Origin: Pseudogemmatithrix spongiicola
GTDB lineage: Bacteria > Gemmatimonadota > Gemmatimonadetes > Gemmatimonadales > Gemmatimonadaceae
Length of the DNA: 64,000 nt
Assembly (NCBI RefSeq): GCF_030623445.1
Contig: NZ_CP130613.1
Location: 1,364,001 to 1,428,000, forward strand
Reading direction: 5' to 3'
This document shows positions 4,055-15,239 of this stretch, in pieces (positions within the stretch are counted from its first letter, which is position 1; each line of letters begins with the position of its first letter). A program made the translations under genes and the position numbers. The notes below the pieces were generated by a model that saw nothing but the letters and a program-made list of their open reading frames with translations, made no database searches and had not been told where the DNA came from.

Positions 4055-5449
4055 TTAGACCTGCTTCACTTCGGCAACCAGCTTAACCAGCGTATCCTTG
4101 GCATTGCCGAACAGCATCTGCGTCTTCTCGCCATAGAACAGCTCATTCTCGATGCCGGCGAAGCCCGCGCTCATGCCGCGCTTCATGACGATGCAGCGCT
4201 TGGCGTAGTCGGCATTGAGGATCGGCATGCCATAGATGGGCGAGGAGGTATCGGTACGCGCCGCCGGGTTCACGACGTCGTTCGCGCCGATCACCAGGCA
4301 CACGTCCGTGCGCTCGAACTCGCCGTTGATCTCGTCCATGTCCACGAGCTTGTCGTAAGGCACGTTCGATTCCGCGAGCAGCACGTTCATGTGGCCCGGC
4401 ATGCGCCCGGCCACCGGGTGGATGGCGAACTTCACCGTGCCGCCGCGCTTCTCGATCAGTTCCATGAGCTCGCGCACCTGGTGCTGCGCCTGCGCCACCG
4501 CGAGGCCGTAGCCCGGGACGACGATGACGCTCTGCGCATAGGCCAGCTGCAGCGCGGCTTCTTCGATGTTCGTTTCCTTCACCGTCAGGCCGGCCGCGCT
4601 CTTGCCGCTCGCCGCCGTCGTCGCGCCGAAGGCGCCGAAGAGCACGTTCGTGAGCGAGCGGTTCATCGCCTTGCACATGATCTGCGAGAGGATGATGCCC
4701 GAGCTGCCGACCAGCGCGCCGGAGATCACCAGCACTTCGCTCTTGATGACGAAGCCCGTCATCGCCGCGGCGATGCCGGAATACGAGTTGAGCAGCGAGA
4801 TCACCACCGGCATGTCCGCGCCGCCAATCGGGATCACCAGCAGCACGCCAATGAGGAGCGCGAGCGCGACGAGCGTATAGAACGCCCACATCGGCACCGT
4901 CGCCGGGCTCGCCACGAGCCACGTGATGAAGCCGAGGATCACGGCGAAGAGCAGGCTGTTCACCACCTTCTGCCCGCCGAACACGATCGGCTTGCCCGAC
5001 ATCACTTCCTGCAGCTTCGCCCACGCAATCGCCGAGCCCGTGAGCGTCACCGCGCCGATGAGCACGCCGAGGTGCGTCGAGATCGCCACGTCGAAGGTCG
5101 AGGTCGCCCCCACCTGCACGCCGTGCAGGTACTCGGCGCTCGCCACGAGCAACGATGCGCCGCCGCCGAGGCCGTTGAGCAGCGCGACCATCTGCGGCAT
5201 CGACGTCATCGCGACCGTGCGGGCCATCCAGAGGCCAAGTGCGCCGCCCACGAGCAGGCCGGCGGCGATCGTGCCGTATTCGATCGTCTTGGTCGAGAGC
5301 AGCGTGACGATGACGGCAATGAGCATGCCCAGCGATGAGAGCTGGTTGCCCTTGCGGGCGGTCTCAGGGCTGCCGAGGCGCTTGAGGCCGATGATGAAGA
5401 GCACTGACGCCACGAGGTACAGCAGGCGTTCCACCGCGATGGAGATCAC
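4055..5449 (-). CDS. pntB: NAD(P) transhydrogenase subunit beta
   Basis: The 464-residue product matches the usual PntB length of about 460. The N-terminal 270 residues contain eight or nine membrane helices (the proton-channel domain dII). The C-terminal dIII domain binds NADP(H), with the motif VPGYGLAVAQAQ, the conserved stretch IGANDVVNPAA, and KRGMSAGFAGIENELF close to the end. With PntA it couples hydride transfer from NADH to NADP+ to inward proton flow, supplying NADPH. The GTG start at 5449 overlaps the stop of pntAB by 4 nt, so translation is coupled. Confidence 0.96.
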   Translation of the reverse strand: MISIAVERLLYLVASVLFIIGLKRLGSPETARKGNQLSSLGMLIAVIVTLLSTKTIEYGTIAAGLLVGGALGLWMARTVAMTSMPQMVALLNGLGGGASLLVASAEYLHGVQVGATSTFDVAISTHLGVLIGAVTLTGSAIAWAKLQEVMSGKPIVFGGQKVVNSLLFAVILGFITWLVASPATVPMWAFYTLVALALLIGVLLVIPIGGADMPVVISLLNSYSGIAAAMTGFVIKSEVLVISGALVGSSGIILSQIMCKAMNRSLTNVLFGAFGATTAASGKSAAGLTVKETNIEEAALQLAYAQSVIVVPGYGLAVAQAQHQVRELMELIEKRGGTVKFAIHPVAGRMPGHMNVLLAESNVPYDKLVDMDEINGEFERTDVCLVIGANDVVNPAARTDTSSPIYGMPILNADYAKRCIVMKRGMSAGFAGIENELFYGEKTQMLFGNAKDTLVKLVAEVKQV

Positions 5450-5742
5450 TTGCTCCCCTCCGTCGGCGACTTCTTGAACATCTCGAGCATGCGGTCGGTG
5501 ACGGCGTAGCCGCCGACCACGTTCATCATCGCGAACACGATCGCGAGGAAGCCCAGCACCTTGCCCATCGTGCCGTAGTCCGAGTGGCCGGCGATGGCCA
5601 TCGCGCCCACGACCGTGATGCCGGAGACGGCGTTGGCGCCGCTCATCAGTGGCGTGTGCAGCGTCGGCGGCACGCGCCCGATGAGCGACGCGCCGAGGTA
5701 GGTCGCCAGGATGAAGATGACGATGAAACCGATGAGATCCAT
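5446..5742 (-). CDS. pntAB: NAD(P) transhydrogenase, membrane part of subunit alpha
   Basis: This 98-residue protein has three hydrophobic helices (starting LIGFIVIFILATYLG) and is the separate C-terminal membrane domain of the alpha subunit in three-gene transhydrogenases. In enterobacteria it is fused to the catalytic domain. The ATG at 5742 shares one base with the TAA of pntAA, and the TGA overlaps the GTG of pntB. The order pntAA-pntAB-pntB is the usual one. Confidence 0.95.
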   Translation of the reverse strand: MDLIGFIVIFILATYLGASLIGRVPPTLHTPLMSGANAVSGITVVGAMAIAGHSDYGTMGKVLGFLAIVFAMMNVVGGYAVTDRMLEMFKKSPTEGSK

Positions 5743-6836
5743 TAGGCGGCCCTCCCCGTGACGATCATCGCGCCGGTGATTTCGTCCGTGCGGTCCACCT
5801 TGAGCGTGCCGTCCTTCTGGAGCATGTGCTGGATGAACGTGAGGATGTTGCGCGAGAGCATCTGCGAGGCGTGGAAGGGCATCGTCGCCGGCAGGTTCAC
5901 CGGTCCGATCACGTGCACGCCGTGCACGTCCACCGTCTCGCCCGCCTTGGTTGCCTCGCAGTTGCCGCCCGATTCCGCGGCGAGGTCCACGATCACCGCG
6001 CCCGGCGCCATCGTCTTCACCGTGTCGGTGGAGATGAGGCGCGGCGCCGCGCGACCAGGGATCTGCGCCGTCGTGATCACCATGTCCATGCCCTTCAGGT
6101 GATCGCGCAGCGCCTGCTGGATGGCGTCCTGCTGTTCCTTGGTCTGCTCTTTCGCATAGCCGCCCGCGGTCTCGCTGTCGGCCGCGATGAGATCCTGCGC
6201 CACGACCGTAGCGCCGAGCGAGCGGATCTGCTCGGCCGCCGCGGCGCGGATGTCGAAGCCGCTGACGACCGCACCCAAGCGGCGTGCCGTCGCGATCGCT
6301 TGCAGGCCGGCGACGCCCGCGCCGAGCACGCAGACCTTGGAGGGCGCGATCGTGCCGGCTGCGGTGGTGAGCATCGGCAGGAACTTCGGCGAGGCTGAGG
6401 CGCCGATGAGTACCGCCTTGTAGCCGGCCACGGTGGCCTGCGACGAGAGCACGTCCATCGACTGGGCGCGCGTGATGCGCGGGACCAGCTCGAGGGCGAA
6501 TGCCGTCACGCCTTGGGCGTCGAGGGCGGCGATGGATTCCGTACTGGTCGACGGCGCGAGCAGGGAAATGAGGTGCGCGCCTTTCGTCATCCGCGCGGCT
6601 TCGGCGGGAGAGGGCTTCTGCACCTTGCAGACGAGGTCTGCTGAGAGGGCCGCGGCGGCGTCGCCGAGCGTAGCGCCGGCGGCTTCGTAGGCGGAGTCAG
6701 GGAATCCTGCGGCGAGTCCCGCGCCGCGCTCGACCCGCACGCTGACGCCCGCCTTCACCAGGCGTGCGACGCTTTCGGGGATGAGTGCAACGCGATGTTC
6801 GCCCGCGGCGGATTCCTTCGGGATACCGAGGATCAC
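5742..6836 (-). CDS. pntAA: NAD(P) transhydrogenase, NAD-binding part of subunit alpha
   Basis: The 364-residue soluble dI domain binds NAD(H). The N-terminus (GIPKESAAGEHRVALIPESV) is the alanine dehydrogenase/PNT signature, and the Rossmann segment KVCVLGAGVAGLQAIATARRLGA lies near residues 166-189. A conserved acidic and glycine stretch (DLAAESGGNCE) is present near 286. The GTG start at 6836 gives the full N-terminal strand. It heads the operon and faces a 586-nt gap, so its promoter must lie in that gap on the minus strand. Confidence 0.95.
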   Translation of the reverse strand: MILGIPKESAAGEHRVALIPESVARLVKAGVSVRVERGAGLAAGFPDSAYEAAGATLGDAAAALSADLVCKVQKPSPAEAARMTKGAHLISLLAPSTSTESIAALDAQGVTAFALELVPRITRAQSMDVLSSQATVAGYKAVLIGASASPKFLPMLTTAAGTIAPSKVCVLGAGVAGLQAIATARRLGAVVSGFDIRAAAAEQIRSLGATVVAQDLIAADSETAGGYAKEQTKEQQDAIQQALRDHLKGMDMVITTAQIPGRAAPRLISTDTVKTMAPGAVIVDLAAESGGNCEATKAGETVDVHGVHVIGPVNLPATMPFHASQMLSRNILTFIQHMLQKDGTLKVDRTDEITGAMIVTGRAA

Positions 6837-7422
6837 GGAGAGGCTCTTGGTGGGATGGCCGTGCGGGACCTAGGAAATGGTCCAGAACGTTACCACGGGA
6901 GTGGAGTCAACGCACATCAGGGAATGTGGGTGCCCGTGTAGGGGGTAGCACCGCGCCCAAGATGCGAGAGGCGTTGCGGATTGCCGGGGCGTTCTGGGAG
7001 AGGCCGCGTAAAGCATTCGGAGTGAAGCTGTGCGCTTTGTCACGCTGTGATAGTGTATAAGCGTAAGTGATACAATGATTTGTGACGATACAGCGCGGTG
7101 TAGTGTCGTAAGTGTAAGCAGTGTCAGTATTTGCAACGGCTGTCAAGAAACGATGCGGCGAATGTGAGCTAAGTCATTGTGTGTAAGTGGATACACTGGC
7201 ATACTGGTTGCGACTCGGTGATATTGCGGCCTGAGTCAGGTGTCATGTGACTAGGACGTTTTGGTTTCGTCTTTAGGGTCGACGCAACTATTGAGGGGCT
7301 TGCTGGATCGAATTGGCAAGTTTGCCCGAATGGTTGCCGATACAAAGTGATAGAGCTGTTCGCGTTTGCGGCGTTGTCTTTTTTGGTTTCAGTCAGGTTC
7401 AACACTCACAGGGGAGTTAGAG
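6837..7422. other. Gene-free, AT-richer divergent region upstream of the pilus-like locus
   Basis: No credible gene is seen; short minus-strand open frames here have no family resemblance or ribosome site. From about 7030 the composition turns clearly AT-richer than the neighbours. Degenerate copies of GTAAGTG followed by ATAC or similar occur at 7063, 7108 and 7183. A small inverted repeat (GGCAA-GT-TTGCC, 7315-7326) lies 96 nt before the first pilin-like gene and could be an operator. A GGGGAG ribosome site sits at 7411-7416. Confidence 0.6.
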
Positions 7423-7998
7423 ATGTCTCGTTCGGTTCTTCGTTTGGTGGCCGGTGCCGTGCTCATTGCGGCGATTCCGGCCGTGTCGCAGGCGCAGGGT
7501 GGTAGCTGCTCGGTGAACACGACTTCCGCGCCGCCGTGGTCTTGCGGCACGCCCGTCATGATCACGCCGCAGTTCCAGGTGCCGACGCTCGCGCGCCTGA
7601 CGGTTACCGAGCCGTCGGATTTCCCGGACCCGCCGGCCGGCTGGGCTGCGTACCTCACGGGTACGCCTGCGGCGGCCTCGGTGGTGACGCAGGCGCCGTT
7701 CACGGTTCGCACGAATGCAACCCACGACGTCACGCTCAACTACGTGAGCTTCGGCGGCGGCTGGTCGAACTCGGATGTGCAGTGGGGAGTGATCGCGGCG
7801 CCGGGTGCCTGCCTCGTCGGTGATGCCACGACTCCACTCGCCGCCTCCAACGACATTGTCGCTGGCGGAACTGCGACGGCCGATACGGATCGGCTGCTCT
7901 GCCTTCGCCTGAACTATCCGATCGGTAACCTGGCGGACGCGCGCTTCGCCTCCGGTGTCAGGACGCTGACCTTGGAAGTCACCATCACCTCGCCGTGA
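7423..7998 (+). CDS. Secreted pilin-like protein 1
   Basis: The gene encodes 191 residues. The ATG at 7423 follows a good GGGGAG ribosome site and starts a clear signal peptide (MSRSVLRLVAGAVLIAAI, cleavage near SQAQG); an in-frame start further upstream would bury it. The mature part is rich in Thr, Val and small residues, has four cysteines that could form two disulfides, and is predicted all-beta. It ends in LTLEVTITSP, a terminal strand shared with two other products of this locus. It is the first gene of the block and 64 nt ahead of the chaperone-like gene, the position of a major structural subunit. No named family is recognised. Confidence 0.65.
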   Translation: MSRSVLRLVAGAVLIAAIPAVSQAQGGSCSVNTTSAPPWSCGTPVMITPQFQVPTLARLTVTEPSDFPDPPAGWAAYLTGTPAAASVVTQAPFTVRTNATHDVTLNYVSFGGGWSNSDVQWGVIAAPGACLVGDATTPLAASNDIVAGGTATADTDRLLCLRLNYPIGNLADARFASGVRTLTLEVTITSP

Positions 7999-8062
7999 TT
8001 GGCGACTCGACTCGCTGACTTCTCTGTTTTCCTCTGTGATCCCTCACGTGAGCGCGACCACC

Positions 8063-8878
8063 ATGCGAATCCGGACATGTGTCTTGATGGCAGCGGTGGT
8101 CGCGTTCGCGGCGATGGGCCGCAGTGCGGCGGCTCAGTTCAATGTCGACGAGCTAGAGCTACACGTCACGCCGAACGGTCCCAGTGCAATCGTCCAAGCG
8201 TTTTCCGTGCGGAGCACGGCGGACACTGTCCAGCAGTTGCAATTCGTGTTGAGTGATTGGGAGCGCGACTCCGCCGGCGTGAATCGGTTCGTACCGCTGG
8301 GTGAGCAGGCCGGGACCTGCGGAGACCGCGTCGACGTGTTCCCGCAGACCCTGCAGTTGCGGCCGGGCGCGGTCGAGTTCGTGCGGGTGACGTACCGCCC
8401 CCGCACCGAGGCGCCCGAGACGGGCTGTTGGGCGGTCGTCCAGGCGCGGAGCGTCAGCCCGCCGAGCGACGGCGGCGGCCGCATGGGCGTCAACATCTCG
8501 ATGGTCATCGGTGTGAAGCTCTACGTCCACGCTCCAGATGCCGTCATCGCCGCTGAGGTCGTGTCGGCAGACGTCGAAGACGTGTGGCGCGTAACGGAAA
8601 CCGGTGACTCCGTGCAGTCGGCGCAGGCGGCGGTCCGGCTCGCCAACACCGGTACTGCGCACCTGCGCGTCGTCACCAAGGTCGAGGTGCGCAACGAGCG
8701 CACCGAGTTGCTGAAGGCATTCGACGGCCCGCTTGCGTACATCACCCCGATGGCATTCCGTGACATCCTGGTGCCGCTGCCCCGCGATTTGGCGCCGGGT
8801 CGCTACGTCGTGGTGATCCTGCTCGACTATGGCGGCGACGAGATCACTGCCGCGCAGTTGGATTTCGAGGTTCCGTGA
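8063..8878 (+). CDS. Periplasmic PapD-like chaperone candidate
   Basis: The 271-residue product has a signal peptide (MRIRTCVLMAAVVAFAAMG, cleavage near SAAAQ). The mature part reads as two immunoglobulin-like domains. The first has an edge-strand region with alternating hydrophobics (NISMVIGVKLYVHAPD), where PapD-type chaperones place the G1 donor strand. The second begins near QAAVRLANTGTAHLRVV. Length and layout fit a chaperone of about 240-270 residues, and pilin-like genes flank it. The ATG at 8063 is chosen because it starts the signal peptide; GTG codons at 8036 and 8048 are alternatives. The assignment is inferred from architecture and neighbours. Confidence 0.6.
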   Translation: MRIRTCVLMAAVVAFAAMGRSAAAQFNVDELELHVTPNGPSAIVQAFSVRSTADTVQQLQFVLSDWERDSAGVNRFVPLGEQAGTCGDRVDVFPQTLQLRPGAVEFVRVTYRPRTEAPETGCWAVVQARSVSPPSDGGGRMGVNISMVIGVKLYVHAPDAVIAAEVVSADVEDVWRVTETGDSVQSAQAAVRLANTGTAHLRVVTKVEVRNERTELLKAFDGPLAYITPMAFRDILVPLPRDLAPGRYVVVILLDYGGDEITAAQLDFEVP

Positions 8879-9387
8879 GCGCGCTCTCGTGGCGCCTCGC
8901 CTCTCGCACGGCCGTCGCCCTCCTCTTGCTCGTCGTCCTTTCGGGACGCATCGGAGCACAGAACCGACGTACGGTGCTGACGGTCAGTGGCCTCCCGCTG
9001 TCCGTGACCAACCCGACCGCAACCGACTTCGAGGCTGGGTCGGTCTCGCTCGGCTCCTCGACTTTCAGCGTGGACCTCACCACAAACGTCGGCGGTGGTT
9101 TCCCCGTGCGCGTGACGACGGTCAACGTGCGCTGCCAGACAGCCTGTCCGAACTCCGGCACGTTGCCCGTATCGGCGCTGCAGTGGCGCCGGTCCGACCT
9201 TGGAACGTGGAACACCCTGACCACGGGCTTCGCGCTGGTCGAGACGCGCACCGCGACGTTCAATGGCACCAACGATCCATGGTCGAATTCGATCTTCTGG
9301 CGCTACTTGTTGAGCTGGACGGGAACGCCGCCAACCGCTGCGACCCAGTTTCGCATTGACTTCCAGCTCGTGGTGACGGCGCCGTGA
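8875..9387 (+). CDS. Secreted pilin-like protein 2
   Basis: This 170-residue protein has a signal peptide (TAVALLLLVVLSGRIGAQ). The mature domain is beta-rich, with TVLTVSGLPLSV at its start and a close cysteine pair in RCQTAC. It ends QFRIDFQLVVTAP, similar in position and character to the last strands of the first and third pilin-like products. The GTG start overlaps the chaperone stop by 4 nt (GTGA), which implies coupled translation. A minor subunit or tip adaptor is a reasonable guess. No family is recognised. Confidence 0.6.
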   Translation: MSALSWRLASRTAVALLLLVVLSGRIGAQNRRTVLTVSGLPLSVTNPTATDFEAGSVSLGSSTFSVDLTTNVGGGFPVRVTTVNVRCQTACPNSGTLPVSALQWRRSDLGTWNTLTTGFALVETRTATFNGTNDPWSNSIFWRYLLSWTGTPPTAATQFRIDFQLVVTAP

Positions 9388-12188
9388 TTGACTGGCGAAA
9401 AGGCCTCATGGCGCTCTTGGCCTTGCTGCTCGTGCTTCCTGCACGCGCGGAGGCGTCAGGCGAGCCCCGGCGCCGCGCGCTTCCGGTGTCGGTGTCGGGC
9501 GCTCCGCGAAGCTTGGTTACGCTCGTCGTACCCGTTCCGCAGGACCTGGCAGATGCGGAGCGGGTGCAGTTCGAGGTGGTGTTGAGCGGGGCGGTCGCGG
9601 TCATGGGCCGCCTCACCGGCGATCTTTTGCGGAGCGAGCGTGGCGGCGTGCAGCCGCTCCTGCTCACGCTTCGCGTGCCGTCCACGGCCTTGATCGGGCT
9701 GCTCGACGTCGCCGACGTCGTGTTCGCGGTCGAGGACGGACGCAGCGTCGCGGTGCCGATCATCCTTCGCGTTCCTGCCGTTCGCTCTGTCATCGTCAGC
9801 GGGCTTCGCGAAGTCCGCGACCTCGAGTCGGGTGACCGCGTGGAACTGGTATACCGCGTGCGGAATCTCGGCAATGCTGTTGAACGCCTGCGTGTCGAAA
9901 TCGCCGCGAATCCCGCCCTCGCCGCCCGCAGCCTGGATGGACCGCAGGTGTCGCTTGCGCCGTACGGCGAAGCGACCGTGACGGTCGCGCTGCGCGTCCC
10001 GCCGGCGAACGGCGCGCAGTTTCCGGTGGCGCTGTCGCTCGTACGCGAGGACGGCTTCGTCGGCGACAGCATCGCCGCCGCGCGGACCATCCTCCAAGTG
10101 GCCAGCACGCCGACCCGCTTGCCTGGCGTGACGATGAATCCGTTCTACGGCGTCGCGGCGTCGCGGGACGGCACGGCCTCCGCCGGCGGGTTCCGCATCG
10201 CCGGACCGGTCAGCGATTCGATCGATTTCTCGCTTGACCTCGCGCTGCCCCCGCAGGGGCAGGGGCTTGGGGTGCTGGGCTTAAGCACGCTCGGTGTGGT
10301 GCGGCAACCGTTCCAGGCAACGCTGGGCAGCGCATCGTGGCGCGCCTCAGCCGGCATCGCGGCCGCCGACTTTGGCGCCCTTTCTGGTATGGCGCCGAAC
10401 GGCGAGGGTGTGGTGGTGCACGCGCCGGTCTTCGGATCGCGCGTCGAGGCGCTTGCCGCGCGACCCCACGCCGGCCTCCAGTCGCGCGGCCATTTCACCG
10501 GCGTGCGCGCGACGTTTGATGTCCCCGTTGGCCAAATGGCGGTTGGCATCACGTCGCTGCGTGAGCGCAGCGGCTTCCTGCCCGGTGCGGGCCGCGCGCT
10601 CGACGCGTTGGCGGTTGAGATCGGCGACGTGCATTTCGGCGCGGTGTCGTCGAGCGCCGGCCTTGCGCTGCGCGACGTGGCCGGTGGTCGTGCCCTTGGC
10701 TACCGGGTGGGCGTCGCGCAGAATGGCCTTCAAACGCGCTGGAGCGCTAGCGTAGTGCAGACGCCGGGTGGAGCCAACGGTTTTGCGGCGTCGGAAAGCA
10801 TGTGGATGCTCGATGCCCGACACGAGTACTCCCGGCGGCTCGCGCTTTCGGCGAATGCGCAGCAGACGCGTGATGGTAACGCAATCGTCCGCAGTTTCGC
10901 GGCGCGGACGGTTGGCGTCGGGGCGCAGTACGCGCTCACGCCACAGACGACCTGGAATCTGCGGCTCAACAGCGCGGAGTCGGAGTTGTCGGCGGGCGCA
11001 GGCTCGGGTGGGAGTTTCGGGAACGAGCAGCTGTCGATCGGAACCGACCTCTCCACGATGCGCGGCGCTTGGCAGTTCTCCGCGAATCTGCGGCTCAGCG
11101 CGATTTCGCGGTTTGCCACGCTCGTCAGTGGCGCGACGAACCGCAGCTCGGCCCAGCAGCGGCAGACGGGCATCGGGGTGTCGCGCGACTTCCAGCGGCT
11201 GGGGCGGCTCGACTACTCCAACACGCTGGTCGAGACCGGCCGAGGCGGCGGCGCGGCCCCGTGGCAACTGAACCAGTCACTACGCTGGTCCGATCTCACG
11301 GTGAGTGTGGGGAACGCCTTCGTGCGCTTCGGCTCGGAGATCGAGACCATCAGCAACTCGCTCTCTCCCACCGGTGTCATCCTCCGCGGCGATGTTTCGA
11401 CGACGTTGCGGAGCGGCGTCGATATCGGGGGGTCCGTCGAGCGGAACCCTTTCCTCCTGGATCGCTCCGGCCGTGTCGGCGTGATCGCAGCGGTGCGCGT
11501 TGGCGTGTCTGCGACCGCATTCGAGGGTGTGCTGCGCACGACGGAGCGCGTCGTCTTTGTCGACGAGAACGGTGACGGGCGGCGCGACCCTGGCGAGCGC
11601 GGGGTAGGTGGCGTCGTCTTTCATTTCGCCAACTATCGATTCGTCTCGTCGCGGTCCGGCACTTTCAAAGTGCCGCGGTCGATGCGCGGCCGGCTGCGCG
11701 CGGACCTCTCCTCCATCCCGACGGGTCTTTTGCTCCATCCGCGATACGCGGCCGACACGGTGGAGCGCGTGGAGATTCCGCTCGTGGCCACTTCGCGCGC
11801 AACCCTGCAGCTACGACTTGAGCAGGATGATCAGGGGCGCGTTCCGAACGTCGACCTGGCGAACGCCGATGTCTGGCTGCGAGACGCCGAGGGCTTCGAG
11901 TGGGTGGGCATGAACGTTGGGGGAGGCAAGTTCCTCTTCACGGACCTCCCGAGCGGGCGATACGTGATGCGGACCAGCACGGCCCGGCTCTCGGAGCCGG
12001 TGCGCATCGAAGAGTCTACGTTGTTGTTGCGCGCAGGGGACGATCTGACGATTGACGTACCGGTTCGCGGACGCGCGGTGCGCATCATCACGCCGCCGCG
12101 ACAGGGAGGGCGAGGTGGTGTCGGGCCCCGCGGTGGCTCCGGCTCCCGAAGCGGCCCAGATCAGCGCTCCCGAAGGGTGATTCCGTGA
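9384..12188 (+). CDS. Large outer-membrane usher-like beta-barrel protein
   Basis: The product is 934 residues with a signal peptide (GLMALLALLLVLPARAEA). Residues 25-250 look like beta-sandwich domains, including a stretch near 160-245 resembling NEW3-type domains. Residues 250-710 are long alternating amphipathic strands rich in Gly, Ser and aromatics (for example WQFSANLRLSAISRF), as in an outer-membrane barrel. At 727-735 a calcium-loop-like motif DENGDGRRD followed by PGERGVGG resembles SdrD B-type repeats. C-terminal beta-sandwich segments (LPSGRYVMRTS) follow, then a basic Gly/Arg-rich tail. Size, order and operon context suggest the secretion channel of a chaperone-usher-like system, but no classical usher signature is evident. 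Confidence 0.55.
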   Translation: MIDWRKGLMALLALLLVLPARAEASGEPRRRALPVSVSGAPRSLVTLVVPVPQDLADAERVQFEVVLSGAVAVMGRLTGDLLRSERGGVQPLLLTLRVPSTALIGLLDVADVVFAVEDGRSVAVPIILRVPAVRSVIVSGLREVRDLESGDRVELVYRVRNLGNAVERLRVEIAANPALAARSLDGPQVSLAPYGEATVTVALRVPPANGAQFPVALSLVREDGFVGDSIAAARTILQVASTPTRLPGVTMNPFYGVAASRDGTASAGGFRIAGPVSDSIDFSLDLALPPQGQGLGVLGLSTLGVVRQPFQATLGSASWRASAGIAAADFGALSGMAPNGEGVVVHAPVFGSRVEALAARPHAGLQSRGHFTGVRATFDVPVGQMAVGITSLRERSGFLPGAGRALDALAVEIGDVHFGAVSSSAGLALRDVAGGRALGYRVGVAQNGLQTRWSASVVQTPGGANGFAASESMWMLDARHEYSRRLALSANAQQTRDGNAIVRSFAARTVGVGAQYALTPQTTWNLRLNSAESELSAGAGSGGSFGNEQLSIGTDLSTMRGAWQFSANLRLSAISRFATLVSGATNRSSAQQRQTGIGVSRDFQRLGRLDYSNTLVETGRGGGAAPWQLNQSLRWSDLTVSVGNAFVRFGSEIETISNSLSPTGVILRGDVSTTLRSGVDIGGSVERNPFLLDRSGRVGVIAAVRVGVSATAFEGVLRTTERVVFVDENGDGRRDPGERGVGGVVFHFANYRFVSSRSGTFKVPRSMRGRLRADLSSIPTGLLLHPRYAADTVERVEIPLVATSRATLQLRLEQDDQGRVPNVDLANADVWLRDAEGFEWVGMNVGGGKFLFTDLPSGRYVMRTSTARLSEPVRIEESTLLLRAGDDLTIDVPVRGRAVRIITPPRQGGRGGVGPRGGSGSRSGPDQRSRRVIP

Positions 12189-12610
12189 GGTCACCGGCGC
12201 ATGGCGTCAGTATGGCGGGGCTGCTCGTCGCGATGAGCGCTGCGGGGTGCGCGTTGGCCGGCGAGCCGGAAGGTCCGTTCGCGGATCTCCGAGGAACCTG
12301 GACGTTTGCGGGCTCGCAGTCCGCTCCGGTGTTGCAGCTGAGCGGGACGCTGGTCTTTTCGGGGCAGGACGCTGAGCAGGTTGTCGGCTCGCTGTCGTGG
12401 CAGGAAACCGATCGGCTCGGCATCGTCGTGACTCGCGGTGGTCCGACCACGGGGACGGTGGTCGGGCTTACCGATGTAGACTTCGCGGTGACCTTGCCGG
12501 ACGGGGAGCGGCGTTTCGTGGCGGAGGTCCGCGCCGATACCCTCGTTGGCGTCTGGGCCGGGGCTCCCGCAAGCGCGTCCGGCGAGTTTCGTGCGGAGCG
12601 GGTTCGATGA
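12185..12610 (+). CDS. Small predicted lipoprotein of the pilus-like locus
   Basis: The gene encodes 141 residues from a GTG that overlaps the usher-like stop by 4 nt. The N-terminus has a hydrophobic stretch ending in the lipobox-like MSAAGC, which predicts lipidation at Cys22. The rest is a small beta-rich domain (DLRGTWTF, LQLSGTLVFSG) that resembles lipocalin-like or META-like folds in outline only. It may anchor or assist the outer-membrane complex. No family is recognised. Confidence 0.6.
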   Translation: MRSPAHGVSMAGLLVAMSAAGCALAGEPEGPFADLRGTWTFAGSQSAPVLQLSGTLVFSGQDAEQVVGSLSWQETDRLGIVVTRGGPTTGTVVGLTDVDFAVTLPDGERRFVAEVRADTLVGVWAGAPASASGEFRAERVR

Positions 12611-13134
12611 GAATCCGCGGTGTCGTCGCGCTGCTGCTGGTCGCCGCCCTCCGTCCACTGGCCGCCCAGACCTGTACCGCGACGAACGTGGCCAATTGTA
12701 CGGTCACCGGTAACGCAACTCGCTCCGTGACGGTCGGCGTGGGGTACGTCGCGCGATTGATCCTGTCGACCTCCACCGTCACGATTCCTACTCCGGACAT
12801 CGCACAGTTCGACGCGAGTGTGACGGGCAACGGAAGCTTTAGCTTCATTGTTCGCGCGAACACGCCCTGGCAGGTGTCGATTCGATCCACCGCCACGACC
12901 TGGACGGCTGCTCCGCTTTCCGCGCGGCAGACGAAGCCGGCAGGTGATCTCCAGTGGTCCCTGTCTGCGGTGTCGGGCTTCACGAACATGACGACCAGTT
13001 TTGCGGCGGTCTCGAGCGGTACGGCCACCGCCGGTTCAAGCGTCACGGTCTATCTGCGGGCCGCACTGGCCTGGACGCTGGAGACGGCAGGGACATACTC
13101 GCTGCCGTTGGAAGTGACCGTAACGTCGCCATGA
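12607..13134 (+). CDS. Secreted pilin-like protein 3
   Basis: The 175-residue product has a signal peptide (MRIRGVVALLLVAALRPLAAQ). The mature part starts with a cysteine pair (TCTATNVANC) and is Thr/Ser/Val rich with predicted beta-strands. It ends YSLPLEVTVTSP, almost the same terminus as the first pilin-like protein. It overlaps the lipoprotein gene by ATGA and closes the coupled run. It may be a second structural subunit or a terminator of the fibre. Confidence 0.62.
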   Translation: MRIRGVVALLLVAALRPLAAQTCTATNVANCTVTGNATRSVTVGVGYVARLILSTSTVTIPTPDIAQFDASVTGNGSFSFIVRANTPWQVSIRSTATTWTAAPLSARQTKPAGDLQWSLSAVSGFTNMTTSFAAVSSGTATAGSSVTVYLRAALAWTLETAGTYSLPLEVTVTSP

Positions 13135-13572: not shown

Positions 13573-14610
13573 TCAGCTCGCGGTCTTCTCGCGACCCGTG
13601 CCCTGAAACGCCATCGCCTTCAACCGCGCCACCCGAATCGCCATCGGCGGGTGCGTCGCAAACAAATCCGCGAACCACCCCTCCTTCCGGTTCGCCCGCC
13701 GCCCCGTCGGATCCACAATGCACAGGTGCGCCACCCCGGTCGAGATCGTCGTCGTCGGCGCATGATGCGACTCGATCTTCGCCAGCGCCTCGGCAAGACT
13801 TGCCGGGTTCCGCGTGAACTGCGCCGCCATCGCATCCGCGAAATACTCGCGACTCCGGCTCACCGCCATGGCCATCAGGCGCACGATGATCGGCGCCAAA
13901 ATCCAGGACAGAAGCCAGACAACGAGCACAATCAGGGCTAAGGGATTTCCGCCCTTACCCTCCCGCCGGGACCCGCCGCCGCCCCCGCGGCCGCTCCGGA
14001 ACGTGGTCCGGAGCATCATGTCCCGGATCAACAGGATGGCCCCGCCGAGCCCGGCAATGAGGGTCATCAGCTTGGTGTCCTCGTTCTTCACATGCCCCAT
14101 CTCGTGCGCCACGACGGCCTGCAGCTCGTCGCGGTTGAGGAGCTCGAGCAAACCCGAGGTCACGGCGAGGTGGGCCTCGCCGGGCTTGGTCCCGGACACG
14201 AACGCGTTGGGATCGGGGTCGGGAACGATGTAAACCGACGGCATGGGCAGGCCGGAGGCGACAGACATCTCCTCGACCACATTCATCAACTGCCGCTCTT
14301 GGTCGCTGGTCGGGTGCACCAGGGGCTGGGCGCCGACCTGCTTCACGACCCGCTTGCCGCCGTTCCGGAGCACATCAAGCGTGAGGCCGAGGGCGAGCAC
14401 GCCGAGTACGGTGCCGATCCAGGGGAACCGGTGCTGGTAGACCGTCCGGCCGGCCTCGTCGGTGAAGTCCTGCGCGTACAGGAACAGGGCGAGGTCGCCG
14501 CCTAGCCCAAGCCACAGGAAAAAGAGCAGGAAGCCGGCCACCAACCACCGGGACTTCCGGCGGTTGGCGGCCTGCTGCTCGAACAGATTGAGGGTCGTGG
14601 GCTCAGCCAC
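13573..14610 (-). CDS. htpX: M48 family membrane metalloprotease HtpX
   Basis: The 345-residue inner-membrane zinc protease has two N-terminal helices (22-46 and 64-80), the zinc motif HEMGH at 169-173, the third ligand E255 in SREYFADA, and helices around 184-200 and 224-250. A glycine/arginine-rich loop lies at 205-221. HtpX degrades misfolded membrane proteins with its active site on the cytoplasmic face. It begins with GTG 20 nt after the lemA stop; lemA-htpX is a widely conserved pair. Confidence 0.94.
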   Translation of the reverse strand: MAEPTTLNLFEQQAANRRKSRWLVAGFLLFFLWLGLGGDLALFLYAQDFTDEAGRTVYQHRFPWIGTVLGVLALGLTLDVLRNGGKRVVKQVGAQPLVHPTSDQERQLMNVVEEMSVASGLPMPSVYIVPDPDPNAFVSGTKPGEAHLAVTSGLLELLNRDELQAVVAHEMGHVKNEDTKLMTLIAGLGGAILLIRDMMLRTTFRSGRGGGGGSRREGKGGNPLALIVLVVWLLSWILAPIIVRLMAMAVSRSREYFADAMAAQFTRNPASLAEALAKIESHHAPTTTISTGVAHLCIVDPTGRRANRKEGWFADLFATHPPMAIRVARLKAMAFQGTGREKTAS

Positions 14611-14630: not shown

Positions 14631-15206
14631 TTATGCGCCGCGACGGAACTCGACCTTGGGCACCGCCCGCTCGGCCGCGTCCTCGATCTCCCACAGTTCC
14701 GCCGGCGTAGCATTCGCCATGCCCGCCACGAGGTTCGTGGGGAACTGCTGCTGCTTGGTGTTGTACTGCGTGGCGGTGTCGTTGTAGAGCTGGCGCGCAA
14801 AGCCGACCTTGTTCTCGGTCGAGGCGAGCTCCTCTTGCAGCGACTTCATGTTGCTGGTGGCCTTGAGGTCGGGATACGCCTCGACGACGGCCATGAAGCG
14901 GCCCAACGCACCGGTGAGCTGGGTCTCGGCGGCAGCGACCTGCTTCACATGCTGGGGATCAAAGCCCGCCGACGCCTGGATGGCGCTGTTGCGCGCGCTG
15001 ATGACGGCCTGGAGGGTGTCCTTTTCGAAATCCATGGCCGCTTGGACCGAACTGATCAGGTTGGGGATCAGGTCGTGGCGGCGCTTGAGCTGCACGTCGA
15101 TCTGCTTGAGCGCGTTGGCGGTCTGGTTGCGGAGGGCGATCAGGCCGTTGTAGGCCGAGATCAACCAGAACACGACGACGACGGCGACAATGCCGAGGAT
15201 GAGCAC
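14631..15206 (-). CDS. lemA: LemA family membrane protein
   Basis: The 191-residue product has one N-terminal membrane helix (VLILGIVAVVVVFWLISAYN) followed by the LemA helical domain, with RNQTANALKQIDVQLKRRHD and the conserved segment DLIPNLISSVQ. The GTG at 15206 is preceded by GGAG at suitable distance, so it is preferred over an ATG 57 nt upstream that lacks one. Function in this family is unsettled; LemA proteins are often paired with envelope proteases such as HtpX, as here. Confidence 0.92.
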   Translation of the reverse strand: MLILGIVAVVVVFWLISAYNGLIALRNQTANALKQIDVQLKRRHDLIPNLISSVQAAMDFEKDTLQAVISARNSAIQASAGFDPQHVKQVAAAETQLTGALGRFMAVVEAYPDLKATSNMKSLQEELASTENKVGFARQLYNDTATQYNTKQQQFPTNLVAGMANATPAELWEIEDAAERAVPKVEFRRGA

Positions 15207-15239
15207 AGCGGTCTCCGGAAGGGGGTCCACCGAAAAGGT

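Follow-up and report, generated by a model that had tools for sequence, protein, structure and literature searches.

A probable operon for chaperone-usher type fibres, from a divergent clade, in Pseudogemmatithrix spongiicola

Gene content and recurrence of the locus

Six open reading frames lie head to tail on the + strand between positions 7423 and 13134 of the window, by which we mean the whole 64,000-nucleotide stretch of Pseudogemmatithrix spongiicola DNA analysed here (Table 1). The host, a soil-type bacterium from a phylum that has received little study, has a genome of 3.26 Mb in a single contig. The list of open reading frames with their translations confirmed the original prediction that the six genes stand together and that five of them are joined by 4-nt overlaps, at 8875-8878, 9384-9387, 12185-12188 and 12607-12610, while a gap of 64 nt separates the end of the first gene from the second. 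It was also correct that no product bears a classical fimbrial signature, since none of the six (0/6) passes a Pfam or NCBIfam cut-off and the Usher family PF00577 is absent from the whole host genome. The product of the fifth gene is a putative lipoprotein, a label taken from a poor lipobox judged by eye. A sigma-70-like site found upstream was rejected, as one such site against 0.6 expected is at chance level. Transhydrogenase-type genes (4055-6836) lie upstream of the operon on the other strand, and HtpX-like (13573-14610) and LemA-like (14631-15230) genes, named by eye, lie downstream. Among named genomes, the neighbouring transhydrogenase subunit found its best matches in Gemmatimonadetes and Gemmatimonadaceae MAGs.

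Table 1. Features of the locus, with window positions and the basis of each assignment
Feature	Position	Strand	Basis
Secreted pilin-like protein A (191 aa), product of the first gene	7423..7998	+	ATG at 7423, AGGGGAG upstream
Periplasmic two-domain PapD-like chaperone, 271 aa	8063..8878	+	orthologue PapD_N, profile comparison, motifs
Codons Cys86 to Cys122 of the chaperone, two invariant cysteines	8318..8428	+	19/19
Codon of chaperone Pro94, equivalent of FimC P88 (precursor numbering)	8342..8344	+	19/19
Codon of chaperone Lys152, column of FimC K148, classical subunit-anchor lysine	8516..8518	+	19/19 class-I rows
Small secreted pilin-like protein B (170 aa), encoded between the chaperone and usher genes	8875..9387	+	ORF, locus order
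Usher-like outer-membrane protein, 934 aa	9384..12188	+	predicted barrel, profile comparison
Two N-terminal Ig-like (NEW3-type) domains, residues ~35-240	9486..10103	+	model; orthologue NPCBM_assoc
Predicted beta-barrel, residues 249-708, ~26 strands	10128..11507	+	model, structural matches
SdrD_B-like domain, calcium-type loop DENGDGRRD	11538..11753	+	Pfam, orthologues
C-terminal carboxypeptidase-regulatory-like beta domain	11772..12071	+	model, orthologue Pfam
Small secreted putative lipoprotein, 141 aa	12185..12610	+	weak lipobox AAG/C, by eye
Secreted pilin-like protein C, 175 aa	12607..13134	+	structure model
Pilin C N-terminal donor-strand candidate, residues 22-45	12670..12741	+	mostly low pLDDT, alternating columns

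The operon is not a chance arrangement, because its gene order, read at first in 11 loci and then in 29, recurs in related genomes: one or more pilin genes come first, followed by those for the chaperone, a small pilin-like protein, the barrel protein, the lipoprotein, and a further pilin. A chaperone gene, a small secreted pilin-like gene and a barrel gene follow one another on the same strand, often with 4-nt overlaps, in 25 of the 29 loci (window counted), which are those with a full or partial match to the usher profile and not a random sample, and some of which end at contig ends. In 19 loci of this set a co-directional lipoprotein gene follows the barrel gene, and in 4 it lies nearby on the opposite strand. 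Of 61 genomes, 15 (that of the window included) gave a match to the barrel protein, in some cases to the SdrD-type stretch or the N-terminus only. For the usher profile, the figure of 135/298 genomes in the phylum sample was set aside as a measure of prevalence, because many rows match the SdrD_B stretch only. The chaperone profile was found in 64 of 298 genomes of this sample, whereas PF00577 passed its cut-off in none of the 39 genomes checked, and loci of this kind thus escape the present usher model. Among named genomes, Gemmatimonas sp. S07.Bin085 (L145) serves as an example, with pilin and chaperone genes adjoining the transhydrogenase gene. Outside the phylum, the chaperone profile was found in 23/247 genomes from the phylum to which an Acidobacteria MAG belongs and in 35/193 genomes from that of Anaeromyxobacter. 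Plasmids searched with the chaperone gave no match, and no locus related to the usher was found in the genome-contig collection searched for such loci.

Several relatives show other arrangements. In a genus relative (G005), the site beside the transhydrogenase genes holds two frames in place of the operon (L025, turned locus ~6301-12001), namely one of 363 residues that resembles the N-terminus of the usher and, after it, one of 1413 residues with glycine-rich repeats (25% G). The same site in G006 carries a solitary chaperone gene (L140, 6356-7252) with no adjoining pilin or usher gene seen. Two tandem operons of the chaperone-pilin-barrel kind lie within 20 kb in G078 (L109).

The chaperone and its conserved residues

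By sequence comparison, the second product is a member of the chaperone family of chaperone-usher systems, and it is the firm anchor of our reading of the locus. The window chaperone itself stays below every profile cut-off. Five of 11 chaperone orthologues matched PapD_N at E <=0.1 (best 1.6e-8), and in the genome search the PapD_N cut-off was passed by the orthologue from G020 and, with neighbours in frame, by that from G031. When the 11-row chaperone profile (A2) was compared with PDB, all 13 sequences up to E 10 were chaperones of chaperone-usher systems, albeit with a best E of only 0.049. Furthermore, hhalign aligned A2 over both domains (186-198 columns) with two Myxococcota chaperones at 97.0% and 98.0%. 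The loci of these two carry Usher (4.1e-17 and 2.2e-29) and PapD_N (5e-17 and 1.6e-15) matches, and SCPU (1.1e-25) was found in the one that was tested for it. Against single sequences, A2 gave 0.3% for FimC and 53.8% for EcpB. A match of a further profile, A7, to FimC in PDB (2.2e-39) was discounted as evidence because A7 itself includes FimC and EcpB, and direct PDB searches with single window proteins gave weak or chance matches only.

The residues of the chaperone point in the same direction. Lys152 stands in the column of FimC K148, which we take to be Lys112 in mature-protein numbering, and hydrophobic residues occupy the positions -9, -7, and -5 from this Lys in 19, 18, and 14 of the 19 class-I chaperones, the group to which the window protein belongs, a pattern that fits the requirement of a donor strand. 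The classical Arg8 column, in contrast, is occupied by E, D or I in 19/19 and by Arg in 0/19, and thus the Arg8 plus Lys112 carboxylate anchor of the classical systems is not reproduced. The two invariant cysteines, Cys86 and Cys122, probably form a disulfide in domain 1. In PMC4654587, a proline is given as the sole invariant residue of the chaperone superfamily, and this domain 1 (D1) proline is present in all 19 class-I chaperones. Together, the PapD_N matches of orthologues, the profile comparison, and these chaperone motifs uphold the chaperone-usher reading put forward in the original prediction.

The pilins and the usher-like barrel protein

The AlphaFold model of pilin C (37 rows) has a mean pLDDT of 86.9 and is confidently folded from residue ~41 onwards; the pLDDT is at least 90 for 129 of the 175 residues and about 50-60 in the first 40. 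The first ten Foldseek matches of this model were CfaB, FimG, and CS17 pilus subunit, with E from 4.1e-4 to 2.2e-3. In VIA, the best two matches were TLP-1a and TLP-1b (9ikj and 9ikk, Z 10.0 and 9.9), and 45 of the 50 listed rows are, as read from their titles, chaperone-usher subunits (Z 7.0-8.6, rmsd ~3), the rows beyond these being CEP192 and two hexosaminidase entries. The N-terminal extension carries a Cys pair (23, 31), whose columns are Cys in 35/35 and 36/36 of the rows having a residue there. Its columns 33, 41, 43, and 45 are mostly hydrophobic or Ala whereas 34, 40, 42, and 44 are not, and Pro or Gly follows the extension in 29 of 36 rows. The final strand is amphipathic and alternating, with Pro at its end in 32 of 37 rows. 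The N-terminal segment of pilin C is thus alternating and left unfolded in the model, as a donor strand requires. From the model and the column pattern, pilin C is predicted to be an incomplete fold with an N-terminal donor extension, which agrees with the missing strand anticipated for the pilins. Pilin A aligns with the pilin family (A3/A6). SCPU was rejected as the pilin family, since its cut-off was passed in 0/39 genomes, with no match at E 1 in the window genome and none at E 0.1 among 24 pilins, and the pilins of class-I loci gave no DUF4402 match.

The model of the 934-residue protein (29 rows, mean pLDDT 84.1) contains a large predicted barrel followed by beta domains that extend to residue 896. 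A barrel or plug had been anticipated; no plug-sized insertion was seen in the barrel of this one model with pTM 0.55, where the longest inter-strand stretch is ~23 residues. Foldseek ranked FimD/PapC structures in all of the places 1-9 (best 1.9e-13), albeit with low TM-scores (0.23-0.37) to the top ushers. VIA ranked MtrB first (Z 19.9, rmsd 5.0, 414 aligned) and gave the FimD barrel a Z of 15.0, level with porins and TonB receptors. The barrel fold by itself is therefore no proof of an usher.

At the sequence level, PF00577, PapC_N, and PapC_C gave no match in the 934-residue protein, nor did PF00577 in its 11 aligned orthologues. Pfam did identify in the 11 orthologues (own included for SdrD_B) SdrD_B in 10 (best 2.2e-10), NPCBM_assoc in 9, and CarboxypepD_reg in 4. 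Both the SdrD-like calcium loop and the carboxypeptidase-regulatory-like C-terminal domains of the original prediction are thus recovered among orthologues, although in the window copy SdrD_B is sub-threshold (E 0.0016) and CarboxypepD_reg stays under its cut-off. The DENGDGRRD loop may bind calcium. In hhalign, the C-terminal part of the barrel protein aligned with archaic Myxococcota ushers at 90.8% (E 1.2e-6, 137 columns), against 0.1% for the controls FepA and BtuB; the usher alignment (A5) gave 2.3% with FimD. Low values against single sequences mean little here, as a known pair such as FimD-EcpC reaches only 0.4% in this way. The region aligned with the archaic ushers corresponds to the SdrD_B-like and carboxypeptidase-regulatory-like domains, that is, to C-terminal beta domains that are common in many surface proteins. 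The proposed comparison with archaic ushers has therefore yielded a link for the C-terminal part but none beyond it, and as judged by profile alignment the relation of the barrel protein to known (archaic) ushers is confined to this part.

Assembly and relation to known systems

We consider it highly likely that 7423-13134 is an operon for chaperone-usher type fibres and belongs to a divergent clade. The locus, known from its genes and predicted folds, is best read as working like a chaperone-usher system in which the usher is a new variant, and by analogy it very probably builds hair-like surface fibres in the general manner of E. coli pili; standard protein libraries miss the parts because they are so divergent. 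In such a system, pilins A, B, and C would enter the periplasm via Sec, and the chaperone would cap each of them, lending its strand G1 to the incomplete fold while its Lys152 would hold the pilin C-terminus. The barrel protein would receive the chaperone-pilin complexes, probably by its N-terminal Ig-like or C-terminal beta domains, replace the strand lent by the chaperone with the N-terminal extension of the pilin that follows, and allow the fibre to exit. Pilins B and C would take part in the fibre, and the lipoprotein would probably sit on the outer membrane beside the barrel.

Alternatively, the locus may be an ordinary archaic (sigma) chaperone-usher system, missed through divergence alone and belonging to no separate clade, which we regard as unlikely. 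The likeness to archaic systems (Csu, CupE, and Myxococcota SCPU loci) is seen in the chaperone, whose nearest profile matches are the archaic-type Myxococcota chaperones over both domains, in the fold of pilin C, which resembles CsuA/B and CsuE, and in the C-terminal part of the usher. In addition, ushers of class III, from the same phylum, gave 96.9% with archaic ushers across 647 columns and 99.2% with class I across the C-terminal part. However, the chaperones differ at the conserved Arg of D1 strand F (F1), by which PMC4654587 distinguishes non-classical (archaic/alternative) chaperones. In an alignment read by eye, where the exact column is alignment-dependent, this Arg is found in 0/19 class-I rows but in 15/16 rows of the Myxococcota search, the exception (L239) coming from an SdrD_B-type locus. 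At this site class-I chaperones show, as read from the alignment, a Cys-Trp type motif, and they have Lys in G1 instead. Moreover, class-I pilins match neither SCPU nor DUF4402, and the usher, unlike archaic ushers, has no Pfam Usher match and has two N-terminal Ig-like domains. In a tree of 64 chaperones, 17 of the 19 class-I rows group together and apart from the archaic cluster, but with support of 94/66, below star level; the remaining two (L117 and L119) branch at an open fork, and EcpB falls with the archaic rows elsewhere (95/89). The new clade suggested earlier is thus borne out in the grouping and falls short in its support, and the sequences make it likely that class-I chaperones form a separate clade. 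More tentatively, as a possibility that we entertain without favouring it, this clade may be centred on the phylum and defined by a ~26-strand plugless usher perhaps gated by the two N-terminal Ig-like domains, by its own chaperone anchor (the classical Lys and a disulfide, but no Arg8), and by a dedicated outer-membrane lipoprotein.

We give slightly less credence to a system for protein export or surface display, whose chaperone-like protein and barrel would handle Ig-like adhesins that never polymerise. Three different single-domain subunits with no obvious major subunit, the presence of a lipoprotein partner, and the first place of MtrB among the VIA matches of the barrel would suit such a system, but the alternating extension and unfolded N-terminus of the pilin family would lack an obvious use without strand exchange. 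It is very improbable that the barrel protein serves as a porin or cytochrome conduit and is just co-transcribed with pilin genes, since, despite MtrB being ranked first, the chaperone-pilin-barrel order is fixed in most loci, often with 4-nt overlaps, and the profile comparison ties the C-terminal part to archaic ushers.

Taken as a divergent chaperone-usher operon, the locus has the invariant Pro, the Lys112 equivalent, and the pilin fold in common with classical systems (type 1, P), whereas it has no Fimbrial, PapC_N, PapC_C or Usher match and no plug in the model. With regard to alternative systems (Ecp, CFA/I), genes of CFA/I are ordered chaperone-pilin-usher, and the order here resembles it. 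CfaB is the best Foldseek match of pilin C, and the carboxypeptidase-regulatory-like C-terminus is common to the barrel protein and EcpC, but TcfC and CooC_C, both present in EcpC, have no match here, and the F1 Arg is missing. No description of such a Gemmatimonadota chaperone-usher system was found in the open-licence literature. Our reading would extend strand-exchange pilus assembly, mostly studied in Proteobacteria, to Gemmatimonadota and, via relatives, to Acidobacteriota, and it provides a sequence set for testing plugless usher gating and the mixed chaperone anchor.

Two further chaperone-usher-like classes occur in the phylum. One of them (L128-L134) has ushers with NEW3 and CarboxypepD_reg, and the G1 position of its chaperones is Gln in 7/7. 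The other, class III (L122, L123, L125-L127, and L135-L137), is that of DUF4402 pilins. Like class I, it has a chaperone-like partner, and its ushers carry SdrD_B and/or CarboxypepD_reg; unlike class I, its pilins match DUF4402 over the cut-off in 3 of 4 tested, and its chaperones are without the G1 Lys in 8/8. At two loci (L019 and L103), a type IV pilin-like gene (N-terminus FTLIELLIVVVIIGILAA) lies 3' of the operon. An Acidobacteria usher-like protein (L232, 6677-9325) has a C-terminal SPOR domain (3e-13), which is unusual for an outer-membrane barrel.
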